From Rubripirellula tenax (GTDB taxonomy: Bacteria; Planctomycetota; Planctomycetia; Pirellulales; Pirellulaceae), in contig NZ_SJPW01000004.1 in the NCBI RefSeq assembly GCF_007860125.1, forward strand, positions 682,838 through 746,837: a stretch of 64,000 bases of DNA. The letters are read 5' to 3'. The position numbers were made by a program, and so were the translations under genes. Positions within the stretch are counted from its first letter, which is position 1. The number at the start of each line of letters is the position of its first letter. Below the pieces are notes generated by a model, which was not told the origin of the DNA, ran no database searches, and was given only the letters and a program-made list of their open reading frames with translations. Shown piece by piece: positions 34,349 through 61,306 of this stretch.

Positions 34349-34359
34349 ACAATGCTGGT

Positions 34360-34452: not shown

Positions 34453-34778
<326 letters not shown>

Positions 34779-34936: not shown

Positions 34937-34940
34937 AGTT

Positions 34941-35369: not shown

Positions 35370-35387
35370 GGTGAATCCTCTGTTTGT

Positions 35388-35479: not shown

Positions 35480-35484
35480 TCCCA

Positions 35485-35994
35485 TTATCGTTGACAGGCG
35501 TAGACGGAATCGCTGTGATCATAGCCGTCGAGTAACACATCACCATCATATTGCATCCCCAGTTTCTCTGCGACACGAATCGAGCGCAAATTGTCCGGCT
35601 CAATAATCGCAATCAGGCGATCCAACTCATAGTGCGAAAAGGCCAGATCACGGACCGCCACCGCGACTTCCGTAGCATAGCCCTTGTCCCAGTATGTGCG
35701 GGCCAGCCGGTATCCAACTTCAATTTCTGGGCGACCACTGATATTCGGGAACCAAGTTAGCCCGCAGTAACCAATCGCCAGCGCGTCGATCGTCTGTGTG
35801 ACAATCCAGAGCCCATATCCGAGCTCGTTGTAGTTGTAGTTCATACGAGTGATCCACGATTGAATCCAATCATCCGTTTGCGGCCCGTCTCCATGTCGCA
35901 TTACCTCCGGGTCGCAGAATACCGCTCGCATTGCAATTGCGTCATCGGGCGAAGCGTGTCGAAGCGTTAATCGCTCTGTTTCGGCAACGATCAT
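35485..35994 (-). CDS. GNAT family N-acetyltransferase (cassette gene)
   Basis: 169 aa, full length for a RimJ/RimL-type GNAT. It has TERLTLRHASPDDAIAMRAV at the N-terminus, a middle strand GYCGLTWFPNISGRPEIEVG, and the acetyl-CoA region YRLARTYWDKGYATEVAVAV (motif A in the form R/Q-x-x-G-x-A/G). It ends with DRLIAIIEPDNLRSIRVAEK and LGMQYDG. It would acetylate an unknown amine, protein N-terminus or drug. Acetyltransferases are common integron cargo. Its start is 10 bp from site I and its stop 6 bp from site H. Confidence 0.9.
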   Translation of the reverse strand: MIVAETERLTLRHASPDDAIAMRAVFCDPEVMRHGDGPQTDDWIQSWITRMNYNYNELGYGLWIVTQTIDALAIGYCGLTWFPNISGRPEIEVGYRLARTYWDKGYATEVAVAVRDLAFSHYELDRLIAIIEPDNLRSIRVAEKLGMQYDGDVLLDGYDHSDSVYACQR

Positions 35995-36003
35995 TGCTTC
36001 AGT

Positions 36004-36101
36004 CGGGGAACGTCCGTGATCACCGAGCCGGAACGATAGACCTGCAAGCAGAAAAAAGCACGCGCAAGTCCGGCTTCGCGTGCATCACATTGTTATCGGG
36101 C
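36004..36101 (-). repeat. attC-like site I
   Basis: Last recognisable site of the second block: outer arms CGGGGAAC and GTTATCGG, inner arms CACCGAGCCGGA and TCCGGCTTCG. The pairing is less perfect and the centre longer (98 bp in all). Confidence 0.65.
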
Positions 36102-36191
36102 CAGATTTGCCTCACCACTCGACATTGGATCTTCATTCCGAATGACCAAGCTGTGATGGCGCACTCCGTTCCCGTGGGTGATTATTATCAA
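36093..36191 (-). pseudogene. Possible cassette-gene remnant
   Basis: A short minus-strand frame (ending RNEDPMSSGEANLAR, TAA at 36095-36093) stops inside the outer box of site I, as the intact cassette genes do. It is open for only about 33 codons and has no start, so it is at best a 3' fragment. Confidence 0.3.
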
Positions 36192-38605: not shown

Positions 38606-39154
38606 TCATTTGTCTGTCGGCGGAAAAGCCGCTTCGATAGCTTTGACCCAGCTGCGGAACTCGCGACGGATCGCTAGGGCGTGGGCTCGATTTTCTAGGC
38701 AGACTTCGCTGTAGATGAGAGTTTGTCCGGCGACTTGGCGTTCGCGTAGCCAAAGGATCATGGCCTCTCGGTCGAAGTGGTCGGGGCGACGACGGAAGAC
38801 GTTGGCTAAGTTGACGCCGGCGGCCGTCAGGGCGGCTCGCCACGATCCGTGGTAGCGAAGGGCGGCATCGTAAAGGCCGCGATCGCGGCTGCGGTTCACC
38901 ATGGCCCCGAGGTCGTAGCCTGTCGTACACAAACGGCGGAGTTGTTGTTCGACGCGGGCTTGCGTCAGGTCGCGACTGTGGGCGACGTGTCGCGTGTTGA
39001 CGCCCGCGTATTGCAATGCCGTTTCCCACGAGCCAAAGTCTTCGATTGCGGCGGCTAAGAGAAGTTCGTCGTCGCGGCGGAGATCGTTTTCGCGAAGGCT
39101 CTCGCCGGCAAGGTCGCGTTCAACAATTTTGCGAATGATGGCTTCTCGGATCAT
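38606..39154 (-). CDS. HNH_repeat-type (homing-endonuclease-associated repeat) protein
   Basis: 182 aa built of about three modules of 50-60 residues: a helix, then D-x-x-L-x-x-A-A-x-x-x-F-G-S-W-x-x-A-L-x-x-A-G-V. Readable copies are LLLAAAIEDFGSWETALQYA, GLYDAALRYHGSWRAALTAA, and a degenerate third (HALAIRREFRSWVKAIEAAF). This pattern matches the homing-endonuclease-associated repeat, thought to bind DNA in tandem. No nuclease motif is present. It overlaps the upstream gene by ATGA and is last in the recombinase operon. Confidence 0.75.
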   Translation of the reverse strand: MIREAIIRKIVERDLAGESLRENDLRRDDELLLAAAIEDFGSWETALQYAGVNTRHVAHSRDLTQARVEQQLRRLCTTGYDLGAMVNRSRDRGLYDAALRYHGSWRAALTAAGVNLANVFRRRPDHFDREAMILWLRERQVAGQTLIYSEVCLENRAHALAIRREFRSWVKAIEAAFPPTDK

Positions 39155-40032
39155 GACGCCACCCTCCGCCGTGTTTGCTTCGTTGTTAGTCCAGCAACTT
39201 GCAGGGCTTTGGCAAGCGTTCCAAATCGTTTTTCAGCGGCATAGGCCAAGTTACTGTCGTGCCTGCGAATCTTTTCACCGGGGTGTTTCGCAATCAGCAT
39301 TCGCAGTCGCTCAATGACTTTCTCCTCGTTCCATCGCTGGCGCGCGGTTTCGTTGATCCCGGCCGCCTGGAGAGCTTTTTCCCAGTTGCCGAAATGCTTG
39401 ATTCCGGCACGGAATAGAGTCTTGTCCTCGCCGCACGTTTTGTACAACCGATAGCCAGAAGCGCGTCGCTCAAGGATCGCTTCGACGACGGACTGCTTGG
39501 TCCAACGTCTGGGCAGCTCGCTTCCCAGGCCGAGTGATTCGACGGCCTTGCGCCAACCGCCGAAATGCTTGATTGCCGATCGGCGTAGATTCGCATCGCG
39601 ATGGGAGCCGAACTTCAGCGGTAGCTCTCGTTCGTAAAGGTCGATGATCGCTAGACGCACTTCATCAGGCGAATAGAACTCGCGTGTCGGCTTAGGGAAT
39701 CCCGCCGCGGCGCGTGCAGCGGTCCAGGTTCCGAAATGTCTTTTAGCGGCTTCGTACAGCCCGCGATCATCGAGGTGGGTTCGCCACAGGCTTTTCCTGT
39801 TTCGATGACGCTCACGAATCGCCTCGATGACCGTTTCCTGCGACCAACCTTGGTTCAGCGGTGGGCGTCGCCCGCACGGCAAGCCCGCAACTTCCAACGC
39901 TGCTCGCAAGCTGCCAAAGCATCGCCTTGCAGCATCATCGAGCTTTCGGTTTGCTCTCGGTCCATTGCGGCGAGTTCGCTTGAGTTCCTCGATCACTTTT
40001 TCGGGGGTCCAATGTTTCTTCGGCATGTTCAT
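39151..40032 (-). CDS. HNH_repeat-type DNA-binding-repeat protein, five modules
   Basis: 293 aa from ATG 40032 (MNMPKKHWTPEKVIEELKRT), chosen because it makes an ATGA overlap with the ParB-like gene. The longer frame would run inside that gene. About five tandem modules each begin W(T/S)xExVIExIxxR and end in a (K/R)-x-F-G-x-(W/L)-x-x-A-x-x-x-A-G box. Examples are DDAARRCFGSLRAALEVAGL, GLYEAAKRHFGTWTAARAAA, LRRSAIKHFGGWRKAVESLG and LFRAGIKHFGNWEKALQAAG. There is no HNH or GIY catalytic motif. I infer a sequence-specific DNA-binding accessory protein of the recombinase element. Confidence 0.75.
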   Translation of the reverse strand: MNMPKKHWTPEKVIEELKRTRRNGPRANRKLDDAARRCFGSLRAALEVAGLPCGRRPPLNQGWSQETVIEAIRERHRNRKSLWRTHLDDRGLYEAAKRHFGTWTAARAAAGFPKPTREFYSPDEVRLAIIDLYERELPLKFGSHRDANLRRSAIKHFGGWRKAVESLGLGSELPRRWTKQSVVEAILERRASGYRLYKTCGEDKTLFRAGIKHFGNWEKALQAAGINETARQRWNEEKVIERLRMLIAKHPGEKIRRHDSNLAYAAEKRFGTLAKALQVAGLTTKQTRRRVAS

Positions 40033-40874
40033 CCCTCCGTGCTTTCGAGGATCTCCTCGAAGACTCGAGCTAGATCCGCATGATTGGTTTGTAGATACGC
40101 TTTCACCTCGGGGTTGTTGAGCAGCGTGCGGACGTAGATGACCAACTTCAACAGATTCGTCGTGTATTGCCGATACAGACCGGAATAGAAATCCTGTTGC
40201 TGTTCGGCATCCTGCAACTTCTTCAACAGTTGGCTTTTCTTCTCGTCGGATTGCGACCACGGGGTCTTGGTACCGTTGGCTTTTGTCCGTTTATTCGCCG
40301 ACGTCTTCAATACCAGTCCGCGAGCGAACGTTGTCGAGTAGTCGTTACACGATTCCATCAACTTCAAGATCTCATGCTGGCGATCTTCCTTGACGTTCGT
40401 CAGCTCCTTCGCTGTTTGCAAATTGATCTTGTTGGTATTGAATGCTTTGACAACGGCCGGATGAAGCTTGGCGAGCAAGCCATTGTTGAGTCGGTGCCCA
40501 ATGCCCTGCATTCCGAGAGCATTTGCGATCGTCTTCTCGTCGAGTTCTTCAAGCGATTTGCGAAGCATTCGCATCTCTTGCGAAGCACTCAGTTGATTGA
40601 CCATCCGGTTACCAGTGAAACCGTCGCGGACGTTGTGGATCAGACAAGGCACCGTTTCGACGCCGTGGTCCAGCAGGATCCGATACCGAAGAGCTCCGTC
40701 CAAAATCTCGTAGCCGTCATCGAGCGGGAACACGATCAGTGGTTCAATTAACCCGACCGCTCGCAAGCTCGCTTCGATCCGTTGCCGATACTTCTTGGCG
40801 ACCTTGCGTTCGCTCCTCGGTACTAGCTTGACGATCGAAATGTCGACGCCTTTGGGTTTGCCGTTGGCACTCAT
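40029..40874 (-). CDS. ParB/RepB-like protein (second of pair)
   Basis: 281 aa. The N-terminal half has a ParB-like nuclease-fold segment: LIEPLIVFPLDDGYEILDGA, then LRYRILLDHGVETVPCLI. The usual GERR box is changed to DGALRYR. A helix-turn-helix region follows (LEELDEKTIANALGMQGIGH) and a helical C-terminus resembling RepB C-terminal regions (KEDRQHEILKLMESCNDYST). With no ParA nearby, plasmid partition is unlikely. Its ATGA overlaps on both sides tie it tightly to the other ParB-like protein and the HNH_repeat protein. Confidence 0.78.
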   Translation of the reverse strand: MSANGKPKGVDISIVKLVPRSERKVAKKYRQRIEASLRAVGLIEPLIVFPLDDGYEILDGALRYRILLDHGVETVPCLIHNVRDGFTGNRMVNQLSASQEMRMLRKSLEELDEKTIANALGMQGIGHRLNNGLLAKLHPAVVKAFNTNKINLQTAKELTNVKEDRQHEILKLMESCNDYSTTFARGLVLKTSANKRTKANGTKTPWSQSDEKKSQLLKKLQDAEQQQDFYSGLYRQYTTNLLKLVIYVRTLLNNPEVKAYLQTNHADLARVFEEILESTEG

Positions 40875-41776
40875 GACGACACCTCCGAGCTCATGGTTGG
40901 ATCGAATTTGAAATCGCCCGCCAGTTCTGGACGCTTGTCGAGTTGTTGCCGCCGCAGCAATGACACCAGGTCCGTGTCTTGAAACAGCGTATTGACGCCG
41001 GCGAGCAGCGTCATGAAGCGGCTCTCTTTCGATTTTGCCTCACGCACATAGCCGGTTTTGACTCGGGTTGTTTCGGCAATGTCATGCCGCAGTTGCCCGA
41101 CCGTGTAATCGCGGCTGGCAGGTGACTTCTTCGATTGCTTGGCCCGCGCCGAGATGATCCGCCGAGCCTGACCAAAGTTGTTGGTCGTCACCAGCCCATC
41201 GGCGAACGCGTCCATCAACACCGCTTGGATTTGCGAATCGTCGGTGGAGGCGACCTGGATCGCAAACTTGATCGGAAAGATGCCGGATTCGACCCCTTGG
41301 ATCAAGCGTTCTTCACCCTGTTCGACCAGTCGGATGTATTCCCGAATGTACTTCTCGGTTTTACAGGCGACTTTGGCGATTCGTGAATACTCCCAGCCTT
41401 CGTCGTGCAATCGCTTCAATTCACGGGCAAAGTCCATGCTGCCGGGTTTGGTGCGAGCGATGTTCTCAATCAGCGATTGAAGGAGCGCTTCTTTGCGAGT
41501 GCAGCTCACGACCTCGGCCGGCACGTGCGTCTTATTGAGCTGTTTGTGGGCCAACAGACGGCCTTCGCCGCAGATCAGTTCGTACTTTCCGGTCGACTCA
41601 AGAAACTTGTCGTTGACGCGGATCGGTTTCATCAAGCCGACGCCCCCGATACTCTCGACATTCATGTCAAATTGCTCTTGGTCGCGGTTGCGTGAGTTGA
41701 TCACCTTCACCTTGTCGATGGGGACGTCTTCGTACCGCCGATCGGCGATGGGGCAAATGTTATTGAGTGGTTCCAT
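40871..41776 (-). CDS. ParB/RepB-like protein (first of pair)
   Basis: 301 aa. It starts with a ParB-type domain: PIDKVKVINSRNRDQEQFDM, GLMKPIRV, YELICGEGRLLAHKQL (matching the GERR box), and SLIENIARTKPGSMDFAREL. A helix-turn-helix follows (WEYSRIAKVACKTEKYIREY) and a RepB-like C-terminus. It is 15 bp downstream of the recombinase stop and overlaps the second ParB-like gene by ATGA. Paired ParB-like proteins without ParA beside a serine recombinase suggest a role in site recognition or control of recombination (inference). Confidence 0.82.
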   Translation of the reverse strand: MEPLNNICPIADRRYEDVPIDKVKVINSRNRDQEQFDMNVESIGGVGLMKPIRVNDKFLESTGKYELICGEGRLLAHKQLNKTHVPAEVVSCTRKEALLQSLIENIARTKPGSMDFARELKRLHDEGWEYSRIAKVACKTEKYIREYIRLVEQGEERLIQGVESGIFPIKFAIQVASTDDSQIQAVLMDAFADGLVTTNNFGQARRIISARAKQSKKSPASRDYTVGQLRHDIAETTRVKTGYVREAKSKESRFMTLLAGVNTLFQDTDLVSLLRRQQLDKRPELAGDFKFDPTMSSEVSS

Positions 41777-41791
41777 GGTTGGTTGTCTCCG

Positions 41792-43279
41792 TTAGAGAAG
41801 TTGTTGAAGGAATTGAAGATCCGTCCGGCCGAACAGTTCGGTGCGGATGGAAGAGCTGGTGTAGCGCATCGGTTTGGAGTCCGAGCCGAACCGCGGCAGC
41901 GCAATGAACCCGAGGATGTTGAAGTCGGCCGGTTCGGAAAGAAGGACGCCAAGCGTCATGTCGATGACAGGGCGCGGGTCACGGCGGATGGGCCAGTACG
42001 TCTCGTAACCGTGTGGCATTGGCACAGCCGGTTGAATCGAAACGGTCAGCTTCTGGTCGAGTACCAAGAAGTCGGAATAGGCCTGCGTCTCGGGGACATG
42101 TCCAAGAATCTGTTCGTGAACCGCCGAACGTGCCTTGTCGCGTTCGCCATCAAACAGTTTTTGAAACGCTTGATCGAGGGATCCAAACTCGCGAGTGTAC
42201 GCACAGGTCGAGGGAAGGTTCTCATCCAACCGGATCAATCCTGGTCGCACCATCCCGCGAGACCGATACAAGGCATCGAGCATCCGTAGCATGTAGTCCG
42301 GATCGTAACGCTGCCTGCGTTTCTCAAAGATCTCTTGGGCTCGGATGAACAGATCGAACTCAATGACTCCGGTGAACGCATCAGTCGTCCGAACCCATTC
42401 TTCGATCGGGTTGGGCACGCTCGGCGTTTTAAGCTTGCCAGACGTCCGGTTGTAAACCATCGTCCCGGCGTACTTCTCATTGCGTAGCCGCGCGAGCACG
42501 CTGCCTGCGCCCCAGCGTCCGTTGCTTGGCGAGGGAATTCCGTCGTCGTTGAGTCCCTCGGCGATCTTGAACTCCGACCAGCCACGTACAACGAACTCGT
42601 CAAAGATCCTCTGAATCACGGCAACCTGTTCCGGCGGCCCTTCGGTCAGCGTTACTCGCTGGTTTTGGATACCCTTGTGTTGGCCGGCTTCCAATACATG
42701 CAGCGGTTCACGTTTCTCGTCGAGCAACAACCGCGACAAGCCATAAGGTGGCTTGCCGCCGGCGAGATACCCTTGCTCGGCGATTTTCACGCATCCCCGC
42801 CAAACCTTGTCGCTCAATTCGCGACTGTATTGGGCGGCCCGAAACCGCTCGAACTGGACGTAGACCGGATAAAGCGGATCATTCTCTTTCGGCTTGCCGA
42901 TCGTCGTGTAGATGACCTGCTTCTTGTTCTTCTTGCAGATCGCCGAGAACTGGGCCGACAAGTCGATGTCTTGAAACCGGCCCCACCGCGATACGTCCAA
43001 ACACAGAACGTATTCAAAGTCGGTACGTTTGGCGATCCATTCCTCCATCATCTCTGTGAACGCCGGCCGTCCTTCGGAGTTCAGCCCCGATCGTCCGGCG
43101 TCGCAGAACTCGCGGATGATTTCGACGCCGTGTTCCCGTGCCCACGCACGAACCTGATCCTGTTGAATCGGGATCGAGTTCTCTTGTCGGTCTTGCGCCG
43201 AATGCCGGTAGTACGCCACCGCTCGAACGAGCGTCGGCGAATCCGGATCGGGCACACCGATCTCCCACCAATTATTCAC
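41792..43279 (-). CDS. Large serine recombinase
   Basis: 495 aa starting at GTG. The resolvase/invertase catalytic domain (about 18-165) has the nucleophile Ser27 in AVAYYRHSAQDRQ, plus EIIREFCDAGRSGLNSEGRP and YVLCLDVSRWGR. The recombinase domain (about 180-330) follows with GYLAGGKPPYGLSRL, QRIFDEFVVRGWSEFKIAEG and GAGSVLARLRNEKYAGTMVY. No clear zinc-ribbon cysteine cluster is seen. Such enzymes integrate phages, ICEs and related elements. It heads a five-gene operon with two ParB-like and two repeat proteins. Confidence 0.93.
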   Translation of the reverse strand: MNNWWEIGVPDPDSPTLVRAVAYYRHSAQDRQENSIPIQQDQVRAWAREHGVEIIREFCDAGRSGLNSEGRPAFTEMMEEWIAKRTDFEYVLCLDVSRWGRFQDIDLSAQFSAICKKNKKQVIYTTIGKPKENDPLYPVYVQFERFRAAQYSRELSDKVWRGCVKIAEQGYLAGGKPPYGLSRLLLDEKREPLHVLEAGQHKGIQNQRVTLTEGPPEQVAVIQRIFDEFVVRGWSEFKIAEGLNDDGIPSPSNGRWGAGSVLARLRNEKYAGTMVYNRTSGKLKTPSVPNPIEEWVRTTDAFTGVIEFDLFIRAQEIFEKRRQRYDPDYMLRMLDALYRSRGMVRPGLIRLDENLPSTCAYTREFGSLDQAFQKLFDGERDKARSAVHEQILGHVPETQAYSDFLVLDQKLTVSIQPAVPMPHGYETYWPIRRDPRPVIDMTLGVLLSEPADFNILGFIALPRFGSDSKPMRYTSSSIRTELFGRTDLQFLQQLL

Positions 43280-43304: not shown

Positions 43305-43425
43305 CGTCGTCGCCTCGAACCCAACGTTCGCGGCATCGACAACACAGTTACGAGAGCACCCAAGCAGGCCTCAAGCGGCTAAGTCACACCTGTCGCCCAG
43401 ATTTCCGAGACTTTGTCACACGATG
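43305..43425. repeat. Duplicated upstream sequence, copy 1
   Basis: Directly upstream of the recombinase start. Its core (43341-43379, containing TTACGAGAG, then CCAAGCAGGCCTCAAGCGGC) is nearly identical to 43941-43979, exactly 600 bp away and in the same orientation. The similarity extends about 120 bp through GAGACTNTGTCACAC. It may be a promoter/operator or a recombinase att-type site. Confidence 0.85.
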
Positions 43426-43508
43426 TTCTTTCGGTGCCCCAATCTCGCCGCGGAATTCTCACCGACAGCCAGACCATCGGCGAGAACCACGGCAAACATC
43501 GCGAGGAT

Positions 43509-43880
43509 TTACGCGACACCAGCGACAACAATCCGCTTGCCGTTTTCTTCGCAAACAACTGCAAGAGAGTCACCACTATCGTCGCAAGCTCGCCCAAGTC
43601 GGCTCAAATCAAAACAGAGGACGACATCAAAATCATCGCGCCGACTGATCCAATCCTCGACCATTTCCGTCAGCGCAGGCCGATCATCTGCCGAAACCTT
43701 CGCCGGCCCCACATCGCAAAACTCGCGAATGATCTCCACGTCGTTCGCAGCCGCCCATCGGCGAACGCGATCGTGCTGCATTATCAACGCCCGCCGATCT
43801 CCGTCATCCGCCGAACAGCGATAGTAAGCCACCGCTCGCGCGCCAATCGGCACCAAGCCAACATTCAATTTATCAACCAC
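43509..43880 (-). CDS. Serine recombinase catalytic domain, stand-alone
   Basis: 123 aa starting at GTG. It aligns with the first 135 residues of the adjacent recombinase (ARAVAYYRCSADDGDRRALI with Ser23, EIIREFCDVGPAKVSADDRP, ALTEMVEDWISRRDDFDVVL, CFDLSRLGRA), then stops after ENGKRIVVAGVA. The catalytic residues and fold core remain, but no DNA-binding recombinase domain follows. It may be the 5' remnant of a duplicated recombinase gene or a functional small resolvase. Its upstream DNA is a copy of that of the full-length gene. Confidence 0.75.
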   Translation of the reverse strand: MVDKLNVGLVPIGARAVAYYRCSADDGDRRALIMQHDRVRRWAAANDVEIIREFCDVGPAKVSADDRPALTEMVEDWISRRDDFDVVLCFDLSRLGRACDDSGDSLAVVCEENGKRIVVAGVA

Positions 43881-43904
43881 AAGAATCTCTCCCTCGCAAA
43901 GTCA

Positions 43905-44022
43905 TCATCACGCCGCGAGCCCAACGCCCGCGGACACAACAAGACAGTTACGAGAGAACCCAAGCAGGCCTCAAGCGGCCAAATGATACCAGTGGCGAAA
44001 GATTCGGAGACTCTGTCACACC
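43905..44022. repeat. Duplicated upstream sequence, copy 2
   Basis: Second copy, upstream of the stand-alone catalytic-domain gene and facing the McrB-like gene on the other side. The bases ACAGTTACGAGAG and CCCAAGCAGGCCTCAAGCGG are conserved with copy 1. Confidence 0.85.
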
Positions 44023-44149: not shown

Positions 44150-46489
44150 ATGAACTCTGACGAACTATCTGCCAAAGCATTGACGCAAATATCAGCTACC
44201 GGTCTTGAATTCGACGCGCCACCACTCGGCGAGAAGCTGAAACGGAATGCCGGCAAAGTAATGAAGGAAATTCCCCTTCAGCGCTTGCAGGCGGGAGGAG
44301 AGCCTCTCAATCAGCAACGTGGTTCGCGATATCAGTGGGGCGAAGGAATCATCCTGAATCGTAACTCACGCGTTGGAGGCGGGTTCTGGACAAACATGCC
44401 GCCCTCACAACTTGAAGACTTGCGTCAGGTAACCGCCGACCATCCCGCGATCTTTCTTTTCTGTTACTACGAGATCACTGACGGCAAATTACATGTTTGG
44501 GCGATTCCGGACGAAGTTGCGTTTCGGAGCCTTGCGACCGTTCAAGAGAATCAATCTGGCGTGAAGACGGTCTTCATTGATCTTCGTACTCAGCGATTCA
44601 GTTACGCCAGTGACGCTCCGGACCTGACGTCCTACTACCGTGAAATCAATCTTTCTGATGCGGAGATTGAGGCTTTGGCGGCGAGCGTCAAGCAAGATGC
44701 TGCGGCGAAGGAGTTAGCCGTAAGTCAAAGCGACGATGAAGAAGACAGTCTGGACGATGAATCATTGGACTCGGAACGATACAACCAGCAAACCGTGGAT
44801 TACTTGCTTGAGCTACCAGAACATACGACGGACGGCGAATGGCACGTTGCAAACAAGGAGCGTTTTGAACTAGTTTTGAGAGATCCAACAAATCATCTTC
44901 TTGAAGCCCTACGAGAAGATTGCATTTCCAGACTTGATCCAGCAGTGGCTGGCACTACCCACAATGTGTCAAAGCTAAAGAAGAATGACTTCGGCCGGGG
45001 AGGCTACAACGATCACTATTGGGCAGCTTTCTTTGACCCGAACGCGAAATCGAAGATCAAGAGTTGCCAGCTGTTCTTTCGGATGCTTGGGAATCAGCGT
45101 CATTTCAACTATGGCTTCGCATTCGGCAACGACTGTGACGTATACATTGCTAACCTGCACGCCGCGATTGCGGGGAATAGGCCTGCGGTCCAAGAATACT
45201 TGTTGAGCGCCCCGGACGGCACCGTGGTCGGGCTTGATGCGTCTGACGATAGGCTACCGATCGACGTCCGGGTTTTTGCGGCTCAGATTGGGGAGGCCGA
45301 TAGCGAGTCTGGTCAGCCAACCATTTCGCCCTCGGCACCGATCAGCATCATTCGTCAATTTGCGCTGGAAGAGCTTCCTCGGCTCGCGGAAACATTGGCC
45401 AACGATATCGGCGAGTTTTTCCGTTGGGCCTGGCCTTTCTTCGATGCAGCGAGAACAGGAGTTTGGAGCACAGGAAGTCGAGGCCGGGTCGTGATCGACG
45501 AAGACGAATCTGAAATCGAAGTCGATGAAGACGCTCCGAGAACCCTTCAACAACTAAGTGAACTCTCCGCGTTGTCAATCAACCGGCTGCAAGAGATTGA
45601 AGATGCATTGCTGACCAAACAGCAAGTAATTCTCACCGGACCTCCAGGTACAAGCAAAACCTACATTGCACAGTTGTTCGCGCGATATTTCGCAGCCGAT
45701 CGAGAAACGAATTCACAAGGTGACCACACGACTCTCTACATGCATGCAAACTGGGCGTACGAGGATTTTTTCGAGGGCATCAAACCGTTCACCGCAGACG
45801 GCGTTTTGAAGTTCGAGCCGAAGCTGGGTTGTTTCTTGGAATGGATCGAATCGTTAAGGAGCTTCCGTCCGAACGCGAGGCACGTGCTTGTCATGGATGA
45901 AATCAATCGTTGCGACACGGCGGCAGTGCTCGGCGAATTGCTGCAACTGCTTGAATACCGCGGTCGTGCGGTGCGTTTGCTTTCCGGGCGCATGTTTCGT
46001 TTTCCCAGCAACGTTTACATCATCGGTACGATGAACAGTGCCGATCGTTCGATTGGACGCATGGACCTTGCCCTTCGTCGGCGCTTTCTGTGGCTCGATC
46101 TTGTTCCTGACTACGACATCTTGCGCACATGGCTGAAGAGACCGGGCAATAACCCCGCAAGATTTTCTTGCGACGCTCTCAGGTCGTGCAATCAGTTGCT
46201 CCAAGATCGCGGTATCGCGCCCGAACAACAGGTGGGCCACGCACTATTCATGGTCCAAACGTTCGGAAATGAAACTCAAGCGTCCGAAGACAAACCGTTG
46301 ATCCCGCAAGCGTTGAAACGGATCGTCCGCTTCAGCGTGCTTCCGTACGTGAAAGAGCTCTGCGTGATGCAATTCGGACGGGTCGATGCGAGCCTTGTAT
46401 CTCAAATCGAGCAAGTGTTACTGGAATGCTTGACGGAAAATCCCGATCAACCCGCGATAACCGATCCATTGAGCGAGCCGGACGCGTGA
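44150..46489 (+). CDS. mcrB: McrB-like AAA+ GTPase/ATPase
   Basis: 779 aa. The C-terminal third is an McrB-type AAA+ domain: Walker A in ILTGPPGTSKTYIAQLFA (about 495-510), Walker B in HVLVMDEINRCDTAAVLGEL (about 578-597), and IIGTMNSADRSIGRMDLALR, corresponding to the McrB MNTADRS signature, then RRFLWLDLVPDY. The N-terminal 450 residues, expected to recognise the DNA target, are not recognisable to me and include an acidic stretch (DDEEDSLDDESLDSE). McrB partners with the McrC nuclease, encoded next with a GTGA overlap. Together they would cut modified or otherwise marked foreign DNA. Confidence 0.92.
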   Translation: MNSDELSAKALTQISATGLEFDAPPLGEKLKRNAGKVMKEIPLQRLQAGGEPLNQQRGSRYQWGEGIILNRNSRVGGGFWTNMPPSQLEDLRQVTADHPAIFLFCYYEITDGKLHVWAIPDEVAFRSLATVQENQSGVKTVFIDLRTQRFSYASDAPDLTSYYREINLSDAEIEALAASVKQDAAAKELAVSQSDDEEDSLDDESLDSERYNQQTVDYLLELPEHTTDGEWHVANKERFELVLRDPTNHLLEALREDCISRLDPAVAGTTHNVSKLKKNDFGRGGYNDHYWAAFFDPNAKSKIKSCQLFFRMLGNQRHFNYGFAFGNDCDVYIANLHAAIAGNRPAVQEYLLSAPDGTVVGLDASDDRLPIDVRVFAAQIGEADSESGQPTISPSAPISIIRQFALEELPRLAETLANDIGEFFRWAWPFFDAARTGVWSTGSRGRVVIDEDESEIEVDEDAPRTLQQLSELSALSINRLQEIEDALLTKQQVILTGPPGTSKTYIAQLFARYFAADRETNSQGDHTTLYMHANWAYEDFFEGIKPFTADGVLKFEPKLGCFLEWIESLRSFRPNARHVLVMDEINRCDTAAVLGELLQLLEYRGRAVRLLSGRMFRFPSNVYIIGTMNSADRSIGRMDLALRRRFLWLDLVPDYDILRTWLKRPGNNPARFSCDALRSCNQLLQDRGIAPEQQVGHALFMVQTFGNETQASEDKPLIPQALKRIVRFSVLPYVKELCVMQFGRVDASLVSQIEQVLLECLTENPDQPAITDPLSEPDA

Positions 46490-47742
46490 CTCAAACACTC
46501 GCCGCGCCGCCGAGGCCTCGTAGCTCAACCGACATCGTGTGCGATGAAGCCGGCACAGCGAACCCGCGCCATTGGGAAGGACCCGTCAGCGAGATCGGAT
46601 CGGACTACAACGCGATTCTCTCGCATGCACAGAACAAAACGATACGAATCGTCGAACACACAAATAGGATTGAGATTCGAGGTCGTGACCGTGTCGGCGT
46701 GATTGAACTACCGAGTGGACGGCGGATACTGCTCAGCACCAAGATCCCTGGTGTCATATTGCTCGATTGGCTCGTCTATTTGCAAGAATTTCCTGACCTT
46801 CAGCTCTGGGCGTCGGGCGGCAGTGTTCAGCAGAGTGACAGTTGGCAAACGGTGCTCGCTCGGCTTTTCCTGCGAGAGCTTGAAATCGTCACACGTTGCC
46901 ACCTGCGTAAAGGCTTCGTGCAAATGAGCGTCGACTCACCGCACGTTCGCGGACGCATCCTTGCCGGACGACTTTCGCAACGAATGTGGCGATTGCCAGC
47001 GATACCACAAGTCGTACGCAGCCGCAGTTTAGACACGCCGGCAAACCAGATGCTTGCCGCAGCGCTCGACCAACTCGTCCTTTTCCAGTCGGATCTCGGT
47101 CCAGACGAAGTTCGATTGTTCCAACAACTACGCAACGAGTGGTCCGCGGTTTCACGCGAGAGCGTCGATCGCCAAACCGTCATCCACACCAGTCTTTCCG
47201 CGCCGCCGGATGGATATCGTTCGGCACTGCAACTCGGAAGACTTCTGCTCACCGGAGCAACGATAGATCAAACCAGCGGCTTCGGCGGCCACACATTTAC
47301 GCTCTCGCTATCGCGGATCTGGGAGCTAGCGCTCACTCGCATGTGCCAAGACCTATCGCCACAAACCGGATGGAATGTCACGTCACGTTCCAAATCCGTC
47401 CGACTCTGGGACGACGCACTCGGTACAGACGATCCCTACCGGTCCCTGATCGCCGACACGTTGCTAGAACGCGAAAGCGAACGTTGGATACTCGATGCAA
47501 AATACAAACGGGGCTTCGGCAACGAGGACCGCAACGACCGATTCCAAATGTGTGCCTACGCATTGGGCTTCGGTGCAAAGCGTGCGACCCTCGTCTACCC
47601 GTTTGCCAATGATGATCAGCCTACACTTCGCACTCTATTGTCGACCACCTATGGCAGTGCCCCCGTGAATATTGATGCGATCGCACTGCCGATGGCAGAA
47701 GGTCCAGTTTCGTGCAAGGCAGGTTTGGAAGTTCAACTGTAG
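46486..47742 (+). CDS. mcrC: McrC-like nuclease subunit
   Basis: 418 aa when started at GTG 46486, which overlaps the McrB stop as GTGA; a longer frame from 46426 lies inside mcrB. The N-terminal McrC region has GVIELPSGRRILLSTKIPGV and LLDWLVYLQEFPDL. The C-terminal PD-(D/E)xK nuclease motif is seen as IADTLLERESERWILDAKYK (about 322-340), where DAKYK supplies the D-x-K. It should form the cleavage subunit with the McrB-like ring. It converges on the helicase operon with a 42-bp gap. Confidence 0.9.
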   Translation: MTQTLAAPPRPRSSTDIVCDEAGTANPRHWEGPVSEIGSDYNAILSHAQNKTIRIVEHTNRIEIRGRDRVGVIELPSGRRILLSTKIPGVILLDWLVYLQEFPDLQLWASGGSVQQSDSWQTVLARLFLRELEIVTRCHLRKGFVQMSVDSPHVRGRILAGRLSQRMWRLPAIPQVVRSRSLDTPANQMLAAALDQLVLFQSDLGPDEVRLFQQLRNEWSAVSRESVDRQTVIHTSLSAPPDGYRSALQLGRLLLTGATIDQTSGFGGHTFTLSLSRIWELALTRMCQDLSPQTGWNVTSRSKSVRLWDDALGTDDPYRSLIADTLLERESERWILDAKYKRGFGNEDRNDRFQMCAYALGFGAKRATLVYPFANDDQPTLRTLLSTTYGSAPVNIDAIALPMAEGPVSCKAGLEVQL

Positions 47743-55007: not shown

Positions 55008-57722
55008 TTACCAGGGCTCGGACAAACGATCGACGATATCGTGGCGAGATAAGACTCGCGAACAGGTCTCCCAACGGTTGGCGTCGGCATCGACCGTGTC
55101 TTGGTATCGCATCTCGAAGACATCACGAGCTTTTTTTCGCAAGTGAATGTATTCGTCCATCTTGTCTTCGAGCTGTTCGATATCCTCGATCCAATCGTCG
55201 TCGATGGTGTCAGGCAACCCACCAAAAATGTCGTAACGATCTTTCATTCGACGCGACAGCACTTGATACACACGCTCGTCTTGTGTGTCGTGGTAAACCA
55301 AATTCAGCATGTCCACGGTTCGGCGTGCCTGATTAAACCGTTTGATGCGACCGAGTCGCTGCTCCAACCTGGATGGGTTCCAAGGTAAGTCGACATTGAT
55401 CAACGTGCCGAGTGTTTGCAGGTTTAGCCCCTCGCAAGCCGCGTCCGTCGCGACAAGCAATCTAAGGTCTCTCTTCTTCACAGCGTGCTTGAGTTCCTCT
55501 CGTTCAACGCTCGCAAAATCCGCGTTACGGAACAATCCGCTTTTGCCCGTCCCCGCGTAGACACCGACCGGTTCATTCGGAAGTACCGCTGCCAATTCTT
55601 TTGCGACCGAAAACGCCGTATCGAAATACTGGCTGAAGACGATGCACCCGTGTTCCAACCAAGTTTTCCCTTCGGTGCGATGCTGGGTGAGAAAATATCG
55701 TATCGCCGCCAACTTCGGATCGCGGGCTTCCGGTCGTGATAACTCCTCAACAATCGTTTTGAGATGTTGAATTTCGGCTGGAGTCGTGTCTTGCAGAGTT
55801 TGCTCAATCAAGAGTGGCTGTTCTTCTTCTTCTTCATTGTCGGCGACATCGTTATGAAGCAACTTTCGCGCAGTCGATTCTCCTGACGCAAAACTGGAAC
55901 AAATACGCTGCAACAACAGCGACTTCATGAACCCCGCCGCCTTGGTTCGTTTCTTTAGTTCATCGGTGTACGCCTCTGCGGCCTCGTAAGCCAAGTCGAA
56001 TGGATGATTCGTCATCAAGCCCAAGCCGCTAAACCCAACACCGGTATACGACGACGCTGGAGCGTCTGGATCGGGGTGAATGTCAACGCCCACCTTCTCC
56101 ATCAAGCCGGCTTCTTCGAGCGTTTGCCGGCGTCGCAATACAGTGTGGCGAACGATTGGGTTGTGTTGTTGCAAGAATCCCGGCTCGAGTGACTGGCCAA
56201 CCGCTTGTTGTTCCAAATACTCCAGCGATCCGAATCCACGGTCGGTGAAAAACTGGGAATCGGGTAAACCAAGTCCTAAACGAAGCGTCGCGAACAATGC
56301 ATCTTCTTTCGCCGGTGGCAGTGGATTGCGTAGCCATTCCCAAGCGTCTTGTTCGTTGTCCGGAACCTTGTCGCCTTTGACGACCGGCAATGATCGCTGG
56401 AAATCAGCCCATCGACCATAAAGTTCACGCCCCAGTACAAAATCCGCACCCTTATTCAGGATGCTCATCAAGTCCCAAACTTCCTGTACTTCGGTTTGGA
56501 TCGGTGTCGCTGTTCCAAGCACCATGTTGCGAACCCGAGGCCCGATCTTCAGCATGAAGTCCAGCAAATTATTGGGCTGTCCGCTTTTCGGACCCACGCC
56601 GCCGCTTCGCCGAGCCTTGTGAGCCTCGTCTAGGATCAACGTGCCGTACTTGCGTTCCAGCAACAGTTGACGTTCCTTTGTGTGCTGAACGAGCAACCCG
56701 GTCGACACGATCGCGATGTGGAACGGACATCGCAGGATGTCTTCCGCGCCACGCGTTTTGATCAAATGCCCTTTGGGATCGACCCACATCTTTTTGTTAG
56801 ACAGCCAAACCGCACTTGGAACGCCCAATTTGTCCTGCAACTCGACCTGCCACTGTAGCGTCAACGTGGACGGGCACAGAATCAGAACCGGCCCGTCGCC
56901 CAGAAGCGCTGCGACCATCGCACTGGCCGCCATCGAAAGCGTCTTGCCAACTCCGACTTCGTCGGCCAATAGCAACCTCGCCTTCCCGTAAATTTCACGA
57001 TGCTCCAAAAACATCGTCACAAACGATCGCTGCCAAGGCTGCAACTGTTCGCCACCGCGATAGATCGGGCTTTCGGCCAGTGCCGCGCCAGGCAACTCTT
57101 TCGTTTTTACATCCTCGAAACGGATCTCCACACGATCGGCAACCCGTTTCACCTCCTCGATGATCGCATCCGGAAGCGCAAAGGAGTCTTCCCAGAGTGC
57201 GTCGAACTCTTCCTCCACCCACGCAACGCCTTCGTCTGACCGATCCTCCCAAAGAATCTCATAGTTGTGGGCAAACGCGCTTTTGGTTTCATTGATCGAA
57301 CCCAGAAAACACGTCTTTGATCCATCGCCTGCTTCAATCACACCCGCTTTGCCGTGAATAAAGACGCGGTCCTTTGGGACAACTCGGATCTCCACTCGAC
57401 CCGAGGTCAGTAGCTCGTGCAATTGCCGATAACGATCCCGATGCAACAACGCCTCGACTTCTGAGGGCGCCTCATTCCAACGTTCCTTCAGCGCCGTATC
57501 GCGAACGTGTTTGGAGATGACCACATCGGCAGCGTCCAGTTCACTGTTGCAGATAATCTGCACCTTGGGGATCGAAGCGACTTGTTCGCCGACAAGCTCA
57601 AAGATCGAACTGCGGAAATAGCCCGCGATCCGTTTGTACGACTTGGCGTTTTGCAAACGCTGAGCTAGAAAGGCATGATCCAAGCGTTCGCGACGCGATG
57701 AAAAGCGAGAGATGTTAGTCAT
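55008..57722 (-). CDS. PLD-SNF2 helicase of a DUF1156/DUF499 defence system
   Basis: 904 aa. The N-terminus (1-180) is a PLD-like nuclease fold with HGK at 123-125 (FIHGKAGVIEAG) and FLGSINETKSAFAHNYEILW. The SF2 helicase core follows with Walker A LLADEVGVGKTLSMAAS (about 251-267), DEAH in LILDEAHKARRS (about 363-374), TATPIQTEVQEVWDLM, and motif VI as WNPSRLEQRLGRIKRFNQ. Similar helicases sit in DISARM- and DUF1156-type defence loci. It likely translocates on and cuts invading DNA. Only 3 bp separate it from the methyltransferase gene. Confidence 0.92.
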   Translation of the reverse strand: MTNISRFSSRRERLDHAFLAQRLQNAKSYKRIAGYFRSSIFELVGEQVASIPKVQIICNSELDAADVVISKHVRDTALKERWNEAPSEVEALLHRDRYRQLHELLTSGRVEIRVVPKDRVFIHGKAGVIEAGDGSKTCFLGSINETKSAFAHNYEILWEDRSDEGVAWVEEEFDALWEDSFALPDAIIEEVKRVADRVEIRFEDVKTKELPGAALAESPIYRGGEQLQPWQRSFVTMFLEHREIYGKARLLLADEVGVGKTLSMAASAMVAALLGDGPVLILCPSTLTLQWQVELQDKLGVPSAVWLSNKKMWVDPKGHLIKTRGAEDILRCPFHIAIVSTGLLVQHTKERQLLLERKYGTLILDEAHKARRSGGVGPKSGQPNNLLDFMLKIGPRVRNMVLGTATPIQTEVQEVWDLMSILNKGADFVLGRELYGRWADFQRSLPVVKGDKVPDNEQDAWEWLRNPLPPAKEDALFATLRLGLGLPDSQFFTDRGFGSLEYLEQQAVGQSLEPGFLQQHNPIVRHTVLRRRQTLEEAGLMEKVGVDIHPDPDAPASSYTGVGFSGLGLMTNHPFDLAYEAAEAYTDELKKRTKAAGFMKSLLLQRICSSFASGESTARKLLHNDVADNEEEEEQPLLIEQTLQDTTPAEIQHLKTIVEELSRPEARDPKLAAIRYFLTQHRTEGKTWLEHGCIVFSQYFDTAFSVAKELAAVLPNEPVGVYAGTGKSGLFRNADFASVEREELKHAVKKRDLRLLVATDAACEGLNLQTLGTLINVDLPWNPSRLEQRLGRIKRFNQARRTVDMLNLVYHDTQDERVYQVLSRRMKDRYDIFGGLPDTIDDDWIEDIEQLEDKMDEYIHLRKKARDVFEMRYQDTVDADANRWETCSRVLSRHDIVDRLSEPW

Positions 57723-57725
57723 GCG

Positions 57726-60700
57726 TTATCCAATTCGTTGGTTCCGAATCAAATCACGCAGCACCCGCGCCGAGGCCGCTTCTTCAGGACGAACCTCTTC
57801 GAGCCGCTTGGCAAGGTAGTCGGCAAACTCCCTAGCCATTTCTCGTTGGTTCATGTCACCAAACCAATTCGGGACGTTCATCGTCAGGTGGGCCAGCACA
57901 TCATCGCCCTCTATATCGCCGGTTAATTCCATGACCGCGTATAAGACCGCACGGAGAACCGATTGATGCAGCTCCGATCCTTCGCCCATTTCTGATCGTG
58001 CCAATTCGACGGCGCTCTTGAGCCGTGCCGAGTTCGCGCGGCGACTAGCCATGAACGCTTGGAAGTCACGCACCTTGAAAGCTTTGGCAAAGTTCTGGTA
58101 GTTGTCCAGCGTCTTGAAGCCGCGAGCCTCCATGTCGATCATCTTCAAGATAAATCGCTCCGCCCCCATCAGTTTGTCCCAGTGCGATTTCGCGACGCCT
58201 TGCGGGACCAAGCACTGATTAGCTGTGTTGACTGCGTAGCCGATCAAGTCGTCCACGAACGTGATTTCACCTTTGACGCGGGGGCGGATAGATTCGCTGG
58301 CCATGTCGCGTCCGTCGATCGTCGAGTAACGCGTCAGCACACGTAGGGCGGCAGCGTAACCAGCCATCTGAATGTCGGCATCCTCGAACACGTTTTCATC
58401 GCGGTATAACCCTTTGGCTTGCTGGTTCAGTCCTGTCAGTGATTCAACTTGCGACTGCACTTCTTCCTCGATTTCCCAAGCCAATTCATCGCGAGTCGTC
58501 TTGTGCTTGCCGAGTCGCTTGCGGCAGACCAACAGCACTGTTCCTTTGACGTTATTGCCATCCCGCAACGCGCTTTCTGTCTCGGTTACGACATACCAAG
58601 CGGCAGTGACCTGCAACCCAGAGGCCCAGACAATGTTCGCCATGTCGGCCCAGATCGAGCCGGACTGGTGAGTGAACATGATGACTTGAATGCCGTGATC
58701 GGGCATGCACTCGGTCATCCGTTTGTAGGCCGCAACCATTCCACGACGAAAGTCCTCGTCTTCGCCTTTGATCGCCATCGACCGCCGACTATCCCAAACC
58801 CAATCAGCAAACTCGGCAGGTGGATTCTTTCGCAGCCATGCGATGAAGAATTCGAGAATCTCCTCATATTTTACCGCGTCGCCATACGGCGGGTCAGTGA
58901 CGTAAATGTCATGCATGCCGTCGATCTGGTCGCACGGGTGAGCATTGACAGTCACTGAAACGCCATCAACGAACGCAAAGTTCTTAAAGTTTTGAGTTAA
59001 GAATGGAGCCGCGTACTTGAACCCTCGGCACCCATAATTGGAAAGAGTGTTCAAGGCTTGATTGTCGAAGACGCCCTTGACGATCCCACCGCCTCCGCGA
59101 GTGTTGTTCCATCGGCTCAGACGAGAGTTGACGTTCATCATTTGCGAAAAACCAAACGCGAGACGCGCATCTTGCCCAATGCGACTTCGTACCATCATTC
59201 CCAGCAGCAACTGACGCGGGTTGAATAAGTGGTGCCAATAAGTCCATCCGCGTGTGCGAATCGGCTCGGAAGTCTTCTCACCGATCTCAATCTTCATATC
59301 AGGAATGAAACCTTCGGATTGCCATTCTGTAAGGTGTTTAGCAACCTCAGCCTCGACCACCTTTTCTCGTCGCAAGTCATCTTTTGTAACGCTGCGAAAC
59401 TCGTAGTAAAAGCTCCGCCCGCTAGCCTTCGGTTTCATCCACTCAATTGCGAATAGCCGTTCTTGATATAGGTCATCTTTGTGCGGAACGAAATCTGAAC
59501 GATTCCATTTCCGTAGTTTGTTTCCGGACTCTCCGCTGTCGTCACGAAAGTCACCGCGAAGAGTTGACAGTTTTGTGCGATGTTCGACTCCGTCGACGGA
59601 ATGAGATAGATAGGGATCTGCTCCGCGCCCATCCGAGCGAACAGTCCCGATGGCTGCATCCTTCATGTCTTCGGCGTCACGTATAGCGCGAACCTCAATT
59701 TCATATCGCTTGTTTTTCGGATCGGGGATCAAATCAACTCGTGAATGGTATCCAACGCTTACAACCAGTGTCGGCAAAAGTGGCACCATCCATCCGGTCT
59801 GCGGACAACGCACTTCAAAGCAATACAAAAAGACCTTGGCACTCCATCCGTCACCGTCAGATTCAATTCCAAGCTGATCAATTTCACGTTGCACATCTTT
59901 AACGAGAGTTTTTTGATTCGACGCGAGATCGCGTATCCCTTCGGACTTGGAGCCAACAATGTTGAAATTCCCCCACGTCAGCATGCACGCAATAGGGTTG
60001 ATATCCGATGCGTACGAATTGCAGCCGATTCTCGCTGCTTCAAACGGTATCTGTCCCGAACCGGCGAACGTATCGGCAAAATTAGCTCGATGGCCAAATC
60101 GCATGACTCCGAGTTGCTCAACAACTTCTTGAAAGCTGTTCGCATTAGTCCCGAGGTGAGAATTGACCGAAGCCCAAATGTGGTCATTGACGATCTCCGC
60201 CACTTCCTCTGGGCGGCTAACCTGGGCCACCAACTCACGGTAGGTTTCATCAGGTAGCATTTTAACCAAGAGCTTCCGTTGGTCTAACTTAGAGAGGTCG
60301 TCTCGCCATTGAACGGCTACACCTTCATACGCTTCATCACTCCAGTCGATCGGTGAGGACTCCGGTAGCGAGCCATCAGGTTCAACGATAAAAAAATCGC
60401 GAATGTTTTTGATTGATAGCTTCTCCAATATCTCTTTGGGTCGATGGTCTCGCTTCCAACGCGCGGCGAGCGATTCAATGTCCATCGCCATGAGCTGCTC
60501 GAAAACAATCAGGTCTTGAGAGGGATTATCTGTTGCCGGCATCAAACATCCCAAGATGCAAGCTCGATTCAGAATCAGCGGCTTTCGACCTTTCCAGTAA
60601 GATCCCAGCGACGTCAAGGTTTTTCCAATATGAGCCATTTGCTCCTTGTACGACTCCGCCGACAGCTTCTGCACAGGGAACAATTTTTCAATCAACGATG

Positions 60701-60740
60701 GTGCGTCTTTCAACGAAAAGGGGACGATCTTGTTGCTCAT
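57726..60740 (-). CDS. DUF1156-type DNA methyltransferase
   Basis: 1004 aa. The SAM-binding motif I is seen as TFAGSGQIPFEAARIG (about 224-239), with SYASDINPIACML next. The catalytic DPPY motif is in DIYVTDPPYGDAVKYEEILE (about 611-630). Motif I before DPPY and the large inserted region are typical of DUF1156 proteins, amino-methyltransferases (N6-adenine or N4-cytosine) found in anti-phage clusters with DUF499 and DUF3780. It should mark host DNA so that the helicase/nuclease partners spare it. It overlaps the DUF3780-like gene by 4 bp. Confidence 0.92.
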   Translation of the reverse strand: MSNKIVPFSLKDAPSLIEKLFPVQKLSAESYKEQMAHIGKTLTSLGSYWKGRKPLILNRACILGCLMPATDNPSQDLIVFEQLMAMDIESLAARWKRDHRPKEILEKLSIKNIRDFFIVEPDGSLPESSPIDWSDEAYEGVAVQWRDDLSKLDQRKLLVKMLPDETYRELVAQVSRPEEVAEIVNDHIWASVNSHLGTNANSFQEVVEQLGVMRFGHRANFADTFAGSGQIPFEAARIGCNSYASDINPIACMLTWGNFNIVGSKSEGIRDLASNQKTLVKDVQREIDQLGIESDGDGWSAKVFLYCFEVRCPQTGWMVPLLPTLVVSVGYHSRVDLIPDPKNKRYEIEVRAIRDAEDMKDAAIGTVRSDGRGADPYLSHSVDGVEHRTKLSTLRGDFRDDSGESGNKLRKWNRSDFVPHKDDLYQERLFAIEWMKPKASGRSFYYEFRSVTKDDLRREKVVEAEVAKHLTEWQSEGFIPDMKIEIGEKTSEPIRTRGWTYWHHLFNPRQLLLGMMVRSRIGQDARLAFGFSQMMNVNSRLSRWNNTRGGGGIVKGVFDNQALNTLSNYGCRGFKYAAPFLTQNFKNFAFVDGVSVTVNAHPCDQIDGMHDIYVTDPPYGDAVKYEEILEFFIAWLRKNPPAEFADWVWDSRRSMAIKGEDEDFRRGMVAAYKRMTECMPDHGIQVIMFTHQSGSIWADMANIVWASGLQVTAAWYVVTETESALRDGNNVKGTVLLVCRKRLGKHKTTRDELAWEIEEEVQSQVESLTGLNQQAKGLYRDENVFEDADIQMAGYAAALRVLTRYSTIDGRDMASESIRPRVKGEITFVDDLIGYAVNTANQCLVPQGVAKSHWDKLMGAERFILKMIDMEARGFKTLDNYQNFAKAFKVRDFQAFMASRRANSARLKSAVELARSEMGEGSELHQSVLRAVLYAVMELTGDIEGDDVLAHLTMNVPNWFGDMNQREMAREFADYLAKRLEEVRPEEAASARVLRDLIRNQRIG

Positions 60741-61306
60741 TCGGCTTCCTTGAACAATGGCATCAGAGTGCGTTCGACAGGGCGACGACGCTTCTTGGCT
60801 GGGTTGGGTTTTTCTCCATCAGAGAGCGCGTGGTAGAGCGCTCGTCGCCAACCACGCTGAGTGTCCTCGGGCAGTCCTGCTTCGGCGACCGTCATCGCAA
60901 ATAACCACCAGCGTTCTTCCGGCCGCAAGGCGGCCCACTTGCCACAGATCACGGGCAGTTGTTCCGCGGTTGCTGTTTCGGCGGCCCAGGCCAACACACA
61001 GAGTTCCTTGCCGAGCAAGCGGTCGACCAGGTTTGTCCCCGAATGCCAGCGGCCCGTCGTCACCTTTGCAGCTTTGAGGCGCGTATTGAACTCGGCTCGC
61101 GATGCCGCAGTGATCGCGGACCAAGTTGGTCGTTTGAGACGAACGCGGTCTTCGTCTTGCGGCGATCCGTTCTCCATCCCGCCATAACCATAGTCCTCGA
61201 CAATCAAAATCGACTCGTTGCGTGACGACGGAATCTCGACACGAAACAAGTGTGCCCCGAAAGTATCGGGGGCGCCAAAATCAACAGTTTTGGTTTTCTT
61301 ACTCAT
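60737..61306 (-). CDS. DUF3780-like protein
   Basis: 189 aa. Recognised mainly from its content and its fixed place between DUF499- and DUF1156-type genes. Conserved-looking parts are FLGAPDTFGAHLFRVEIP-like (FGAPDTFGAHLFRVEIPSSR), RLKRPTWSAITAASRAEFNT, CVLAWAAETATAEQLPVICG, and WAALRPEERWWLFAMTVAEA followed by GLPEDTQRGWRRAL. No catalytic motif. It overlaps both neighbours by 4 bp, arguing for a stoichiometric subunit of the system. Confidence 0.8.
   Translation of the reverse strand: MSKKTKTVDFGAPDTFGAHLFRVEIPSSRNESILIVEDYGYGGMENGSPQDEDRVRLKRPTWSAITAASRAEFNTRLKAAKVTTGRWHSGTNLVDRLLGKELCVLAWAAETATAEQLPVICGKWAALRPEERWWLFAMTVAEAGLPEDTQRGWRRALYHALSDGEKPNPAKKRRRPVERTLMPLFKEAE

Follow-up and report, generated by a model that had tools for sequence, protein, structure and literature searches.

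A compact serine recombinase–ParB–ParB unit with variable HNH-repeat genes in Rubripirellula tenax: a probable integrative element of an apparently undescribed kind

The segment at 38.6–43.4 kb of the window, the 64,000-nucleotide stretch of contig NZ_SJPW01000004.1 of Rubripirellula tenax analysed here (genome of 8.0 Mb in 42 contigs), is probably a compact integrative element, widespread and apparently undescribed, that combines a serine recombinase devoid of a zinc ribbon, two diverged ParB/RepB-like paralogues, and a clade-specific, variable set of HNH-repeat proteins, and for which a mechanism is proposed below. An earlier note, made from the sequence alone, had described the five genes as a tightly coupled operon at 38606–43279 and as a possible unclassified integrative element. 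The layout was recovered as described, with all genes on the minus strand, 15 bp between the recombinase and ParB1 genes, and then three 4-base ATGA overlaps; the designation as an unclassified integrative element is supported by wide co-occurrence of the genes, by their presence in several contexts, by the sharpness of the left end, and by an empty site that a distant relative provides. The domains are known, and no description of the recombinase–ParB1–ParB2 triad or of HNH-repeat operons was found in the open-access literature; the combination is apparently a new form of serine-recombinase mobile element.

The predicted recombinase (P0005, 495 amino acids; 41792..43279, minus strand) contains Resolvase and Recombinase domains, both above the Pfam cut-off (PF00239, 58 bits; PF07508, 74 bits), and carries YYRHSA and SRWGR, which we take to be the catalytic motifs of a serine recombinase. 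Pfam gave no match to the zinc ribbon PF13408 in P0005, although the same search does report this domain in an ordinary recombinase beside locus L077; all 21 family members have only zero to three cysteines after residue 322, and the C-terminus consists instead of a conserved segment ending in FGS.., with a weak resemblance to an HNH repeat. In a maximum-sensitivity scan against a database of 21 recombinases, the HNH-repeat profile reached full-sequence E-values of 0.003–0.03 for the best six of the 21 and 0.052 for the window's own copy, and in a low-confidence model the helix pattern of the FGS segment is similar to that of an HNH repeat; this weak resemblance is a lead and no claim of homology. 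ParB1 (40871..41776, minus strand) and ParB2 (40029..40874, minus strand) both carry a ParB_N domain (PF02195) above the cut-off and a sub-threshold RepB-like C-terminus, and their sequences matched ParB/Spo0J and Noc structures. ParB1 has the motif CGEGR, which is replaced by DGALR in ParB2; all seven aligned pairs repeat this division (CG[EQ]GR in ParB1, DG..R in ParB2), which points to an old pair and not to a recent duplication. The gene for HNH-repeat protein 1 (39151..40032, minus strand; start ATGAACATG at 40032, end at 39151) encodes five repeats of about 57 amino acids, each modelled as three helices, and that for HNH-repeat protein 2 (38606..39154, minus strand), the last of the operon, encodes three. 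As the earlier note had read them, both proteins have only HNH_repeat above the cut-off (PF18780, 42 and 61 bits) and no HNH nuclease domain in Pfam; ParA and phage structural genes, whose absence it had noted, were likewise not found in a scan that covered 18 of the window's proteins.

The conserved part of this arrangement is the triad. In a sample of 99 related genomes, the window's own included, the recombinase search (E ≤ 1e-20) and the ParB2 search each gave matches in 23; a ParB2 homologue adjoins 18 of the 21 recombinase homologues of at least 235 bits, and a recombinase adjoins 18 of the 20 ParB2 homologues of at least 80 bits, counts obtained by comparing the two match tables by eye. 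The exceptions are a ParB2-deleted copy (G021:C252), a ParB2 fragment (G058:C5), a contig edge (G041), and two genomes with a recombinase in which no ParB2 was found (G039, G069). When the window proteins were compared by tblastn with 22 loci from other lineages, which are not independent (five are from Sphingobium, two from Roseomonas, and two from Pontiella), recombinase, ParB1, and ParB2 were found in order at 21; the remaining locus, L094, begins within ParB1 at a contig edge. Among these loci is a record labelled Lactiplantibacillus (L151); the same gene order stands on a gut scaffold that is labelled phage (L101), and a viral contig (L174) carries recombinase–ParB1–ParB2–HNH-repeat. By eye, no structural gene was recognised in the listed open reading frames (ORFs) of L174, for which no family scan was made. 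Annotated plasmids of Agrobacterium, Methylibium, Sphingobium, and Roseomonas also carry the triad, with most of its ParBs entered as "plasmid partitioning protein RepB C-terminal domain-containing protein." Comparison thus shows recombinase–ParB1–ParB2 to be a conserved predicted operon in Planctomycetota, Kiritimatiellota, and Pseudomonadota. The named relatives of the operon belong to the Planctomycetota; the closest, in Stieleria tagensis (L037), shares 94% identity in the recombinase, 92% in ParB1, 93% in ParB2, and 65% and 74% in the repeat proteins. The genes therefore co-occur widely, where rarity elsewhere would have spoken against an element. The five-member targeting complex envisaged in the earlier note is not shown, since the core, as predicted from gene order, is three genes, to which one lineage has added HNH-repeat genes in varying number. 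In the more distant relatives L086, L087, L089, L092, and L093, a small gene (cluster c5) precedes the recombinase; judged by eye, the C-terminus of its product appears winged-helix-like.

Copies in different surroundings suggest that the triad moves as a unit about 4–5 kb long. Pontiella sulfatireligans has two copies alike over 4.53 kb at 96.8% identity, with unrelated flanks, and the 3' parts alone remain at two further sites. In Agrobacterium, positions 5017–8920 of the pAtC58 stretch are 96.9% identical in pAt1D1460, among different neighbouring genes. In Sinorhizobium sp. K101, a segment of 3,887 bp containing the triad (L100, 4976–8862) interrupts comM/yifB, which is uninterrupted in S. 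meliloti Ak57 and so provides the matching empty site; the two alignments overlap by 4 bp, TGCT. Near-identical predicted units thus stand in unrelated contexts, in one case with an empty site, as the comparison shows. The mapping against empty sites proposed in the earlier note succeeded for the Sinorhizobium comM site, in a distant relative, and not for the window's own copy. These units of 3.9–4.5 kb consist of the triad, at most one short extra gene, and non-coding DNA; no virion, relaxase, or conjugation genes, and no defence genes, were found inside them. Since a unit of this size leaves no space for conjugation or virion genes, the recombinase does not appear to belong to a standard prophage or integrative and conjugative element, the assignment that would have removed the case for a separate class.

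Two repeats were noted beside these units. On Agrobacterium pAt plasmids (L097, L103, L104, L105), the 20-bp motif GCCTTGANNGGAATCGAACC occurs 10–18 times per plasmid (up to three mismatches; control 0–1), mostly in one orientation per region, and bounds VapBC, Fic, and AbiEii toxin-antitoxin genes as well as the recombinase-RepB-RepB unit; it was considered as the element's attachment repeat and dropped, given its copy number and its position around other cassettes. In Pontiella (G099), the dispersed repeat ATGCGGAAAACATCATTTCATAGGACTGACCCCTT lies at the right end of the elements (L054, 9356–9437) and is scattered genome-wide.

The left boundary of the element is sharp by comparison of related loci. 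In the window it lies in a conserved block at 43344..43420 on the minus strand, TGTGACAAAGTCTC...C|GCTTGAGGCCTGC...CGTAACTGT; across the window's clade, the homologous sequence begins abruptly near C|GCTTGA, with unrelated sequence in front, and among the window's closest relatives it starts about 45 bp further out, at TGTGACAAAGTCTC. Across 30 left junctions, the mean information is 0.35 bit for positions -24 to -2, and the values from -1 to +5 lie at 1.4–2.0 bits; these junctions were picked by motif and are not independent, so that the right-hand values hold partly by construction, the left-hand drop not. With up to three mismatches the left-end motif occurs in 10 of the 99 related genomes, and a reversed-pattern control in none; seven of the ten have the operon, and three (G033, G037, G068) have left-end remnants only. 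Sorted by eye, 10 of the 26 places with the motif precede an operon recombinase (at least two of these genes being damaged), 13 precede a truncated recombinase, two are solo (L135, L141), and one is at a contig end; a single genome has 11 left-end motifs, with unrelated left flanks in at least five. The block is perhaps also the recombinase promoter. Judged from relatives, the right end is probably at or near the 3' end of the gene for HNH-repeat protein 2; the left-end motif does not recur there consistently in either orientation, and an inverted CTTGA, noticed by eye at the right end in the window, was dropped because it is not shared.

Immediately upstream, at 43421..44020 on the minus strand, a similar left-end block is followed by a recombinase cut after about 120 amino acids (ORF 43880–43509), a second, truncated copy that the earlier note had overlooked. 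Truncated recombinase N-termini with their own left-end block lie upstream of the recombinase not only in the window but also at L037, L076, L132, L045, and L051; at L051 there are two in tandem, one of which by eye resembles another recombinase subfamily, and at L050 the truncated copy is itself cut by the contig end. We read these N-termini as the likely remains of earlier copies. They might instead be functional regulator genes, a side question that is compatible with the proposed element in either case: the truncated copy has an uninterrupted reading frame in the window and, judged by eye, in the two copies of R. obstinata, and a similar terminator-like hairpin follows it in the window, L037, and L076. 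This is rather unlikely, however, since the L037 copy has an in-frame stop after 76 codons and a ratio of nonsynonymous to synonymous divergence (dN/dS) of about 0.5, compared to 0.06 for the recombinase of the same pair; a functional gene is disfavoured by both. Truncation points also differ, from about 68 to 120 amino acids or with a divergent tail, and at L140 an isolated left end carries about 90 recombinase codons before it passes into an unrelated gene.

The HNH-repeat genes appear to accompany the triad only in the window's clade. Relatives of the repeat protein P0002 (E ≤ 1e-6) occur in 12 of the 99 genomes, namely in all 11 whose ParB2 reaches 47% identity, there on the contig of ParB2 and mostly within 200 bp of it, and in G034, which has no ParB2 match. 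An alignment of 244 repeats from 23 loci has the conserved scaffold W...VI..I......G..L...L..AA...FGSW..AL.AAG, while exposed positions in helices and loops vary; loci have 3–28 repeats, except for a single repeat at one contig end. The AlphaFold model of HNH-repeat protein 1 has three main helices per repeat (mean predicted local distance difference test, pLDDT, 83; predicted template modelling score 0.37). Between the window and L037, dN is 0.26 and 0.18 in the repeat genes, against 0.04 in the recombinase, 0.05 in ParB1, and 0.03 in ParB2; this faster change is uneven: according to the pair and the gene compared, the repeat genes have 1.4 to 8 times the dN of the triad genes, and in L078/L042 they exceed ParB1 by no more than 1.4- to 2-fold. 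In two of the three pairs HNH-repeat gene 1 is saturated at synonymous sites, which suggests that its repeats may be out of register. Selection on the repeats is purifying (dN/dS 0.20–0.31 in three pairs), and a proposal of diversifying selection is unsupported; three exposed helix-3 positions change relatively more (pooled pN 0.18 over 51 codons) than the scaffold (0.05 over 308 codons). Two elements in one genome share 89% DNA identity in the last repeat gene and 72–76% over the recombinase and ParB region, which indicates that repeat genes can be exchanged between elements. An origin of the repeats as phage nuclease parts was discarded, as P0002 had no match at E ≤ 0.001 in 50,697 phage records. 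Distant P0002 relatives occur in 22 Bacillus-type and haloarchaeal plasmid records, so that the repeat family is not confined to the window's clade; on Bacillus subtilis plasmids (e.g., NZ_CP103996.1; up to nine places per Bacillus plasmid) and Halobacterium plasmids they are annotated as hypothetical. HNH_repeat appears in one source in a list of repeat families that were modelled while no structure of them was known (PMC8078820).

The surroundings of the operon bear on what the mobile unit is. At each of 14 clade loci at least one flanking protein was tested, never all (20 proteins in Pfam, 10 of them also in PADLOC, in addition to the window scan and similarity to window proteins), and defence genes were among the nearest ORFs at seven, a frequency that stands beside no control rate for random planctomycete loci. 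In the window, a gene pair at 44150..47742 on the plus strand, outside the element and adjoining the operon, appears McrBC-like from the AAA_5 match of its L037 homologue and from the gene arrangement; about 11 kb away, a BREX (bacteriophage exclusion)-related system at 55008..63897 on the minus strand encodes PLD_Helicase, a DUF1156 methyltransferase, DUF3780, and DUF499, a set that matches "Type-2 BR" as described in PMC12839542. The operon could thus be the integration module of a larger defence island, with a mobile unit that extends beyond the 4.8-kb operon to the entire island (McrBC, helicases, BREX-related genes). This is consistent with the McrBC-like genes that the operon also abuts in L037, with relatives of the window's helicase and PLD proteins on the same side in R. 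obstinata (L076), and with DrmA and DrmB (PADLOC) and a PLD protein taken as a putative DrmC (Pfam) at L132, which stop some 170 bp short of the left end of the scar preceding the recombinase; further flanks have DrmD and ABC-3C (L086), TmtA (L049), GmrSD (L040), and, as a borderline and partial case, MkoA (L042, E 3e-11). The larger island is nevertheless an unlikely explanation. In Pontiella, Agrobacterium, and Sinorhizobium, what the copies share reaches no further than the triad, the left-end homology of the window's clade ends sharply at differing neighbours, and the defence systems vary by locus, with none among the flanking proteins tested at six (L047, L051, L077, L078, L081, L087).

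The same neighbourhood, beside defence and toxin-antitoxin genes, would also suit a standing host or anti-invader module (e.g., for exclusion, segregation, or recombination-based defence) that has been duplicated and horizontally transferred and has no transposition of its own; ParB-superfamily proteins do occur in defence systems (PMC12839542). The precise comM insertion with its 4-bp overlap, the sharp left end in many contexts, and the truncated scars fit poorly with such a module, which we regard as very unlikely.

Several observations weigh against a self-contained integrative element. For the window's own copy, relatives of the right-flank gene were found in G011 and G018, yet no contiguous empty site; most of the cases with an empty site or unrelated flanks belong to other lineages, whose ends differ, and segmental duplication could be the source of some of the multi-context copies. 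The argument for recombinase-driven integration comes from comparing the filled and the empty comM site, and no excision, circle, or integration has been observed. The right end is placed only approximately. Four of the 11 operon genomes (G038, G053, G058, G072) gave no match to the left-end motif within three mismatches; the G058 locus has it with four mismatches, and the loci L086 and L087, in two of these four genomes, are without it even at seven. An adjacent ParB2 is absent at three of the 21 recombinase homologues, and HNH repeats were found at none of the 22 other-lineage loci, including L053 with its 45%-identical ParB2. With regard to structure, the recombinase model is of low confidence (mean pLDDT 54) and was kept out of fold searches; the repeat protein had no Foldseek match at E ≤ 0.001, and VIA-align gave weak matches, best Z 4.1, to TetR-type helix-turn-helix and ribosomal proteins alike.

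As a working mechanism for the compact integrative element, the recombinase would exchange strands near the left-end core (C|GCTTGA in the window's clade), joining element and target. ParB1 and ParB2 would take the place of the zinc-ribbon/coiled-coil module and, without ParA, hold or orient the synapse as partners in synapsis or direction, and the HNH-repeat proteins, as tandem helix-turn-helix-like modules, would bind DNA at ends or targets; both the part of the ParB pair in synapsis and the reading of DNA by the repeats are inferred. New copies would frequently insert next to older ones, of which the left ends and the first codons of the recombinase would stay as scars. As a speculative extension that we consider improbable, HNH-repeat arrays would be modular DNA readers that give the recombinase and the ParB pair an exchangeable target, with retargeting by gain, loss, or swap of repeats aiding homing into defence islands.

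Beyond the element, five of the six Recombinase-domain genes found in the genome lie on one contig within about 230 kb (G000:C4, 619–851 kb), and the region around the window is an apparent integration hot spot. At 32980–36130 of the window, repeats of about 95 bp (GGATAAC...GTTATCC) stand between small genes, with many more elsewhere in the genome and genus; one repeat, folded as DNA, gave a z of -4.85, and the series resembles an integron-like cassette array near the operon.

If the proposed reading is correct, the triad defines a widespread, apparently unnamed class of very small mobile elements, in which ParBs are standing partners of a serine recombinase that has no usual site-recognition domain; a ParB role outside partitioning would become directly testable. 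If the repeat arrays bind DNA modularly, they may constitute a new family of readable DNA-binding modules; they might then also account in part for the presence of the element in antiviral defence islands.

Transcription activator-like effectors (TALEs) are modular DNA readers, and they share with the HNH-repeat proteins, by analogy only, helical repeats in tandem whose scaffold is conserved and whose exposed positions vary; here, in contrast, the three-helix repeat belongs to another sequence family, shows no code and no sign of diversifying selection, and its DNA binding is putative. The PF18780 repeats are presumably, from their Pfam name, linked to HNH homing endonucleases; the repeat family is the same, but in the elements described here it comes without an HNH nuclease and in up to 28 copies per locus. 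The ParB pair has the ParB_N domains of RepABC/ParABS partition systems and, like these, matches ParB/Spo0J and Noc structures; it differs in the absence of ParA from the operon, in the tandem arrangement of two diverged ParBs, and in its linkage to a recombinase. As in large serine integrases of the phage A118/LI integrase type, a Resolvase catalytic domain is followed by a Recombinase domain, and in Sinorhizobium a very short core is shared at the insertion; there is, however, no zinc ribbon, and two ParB genes nearly always follow. The usual C-terminal part of these integrases consists of recombinase domain, zinc ribbon, and coiled coil, and accessory proteins are not required (PMC3783163); large serine recombinases can reportedly serve anti-phage islands as well (PMC6002521). 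Elements of the TnpX/TndX type (Tn4451 and integrative and mobilizable elements) are similarly small and mobilised by one serine recombinase, and TnpX is among the four solved sequences matched by the recombinase (E 2e-5); for streptococcal integrative and mobilizable elements, ParB is mentioned as a possible partition gene in some of them (PMC5704250). Unlike the TnpX/TndX-type elements, the unit of 3.9–4.8 kb considered here carries neither relaxase nor resistance cargo, and has instead the ParB pair and the repeat proteins.

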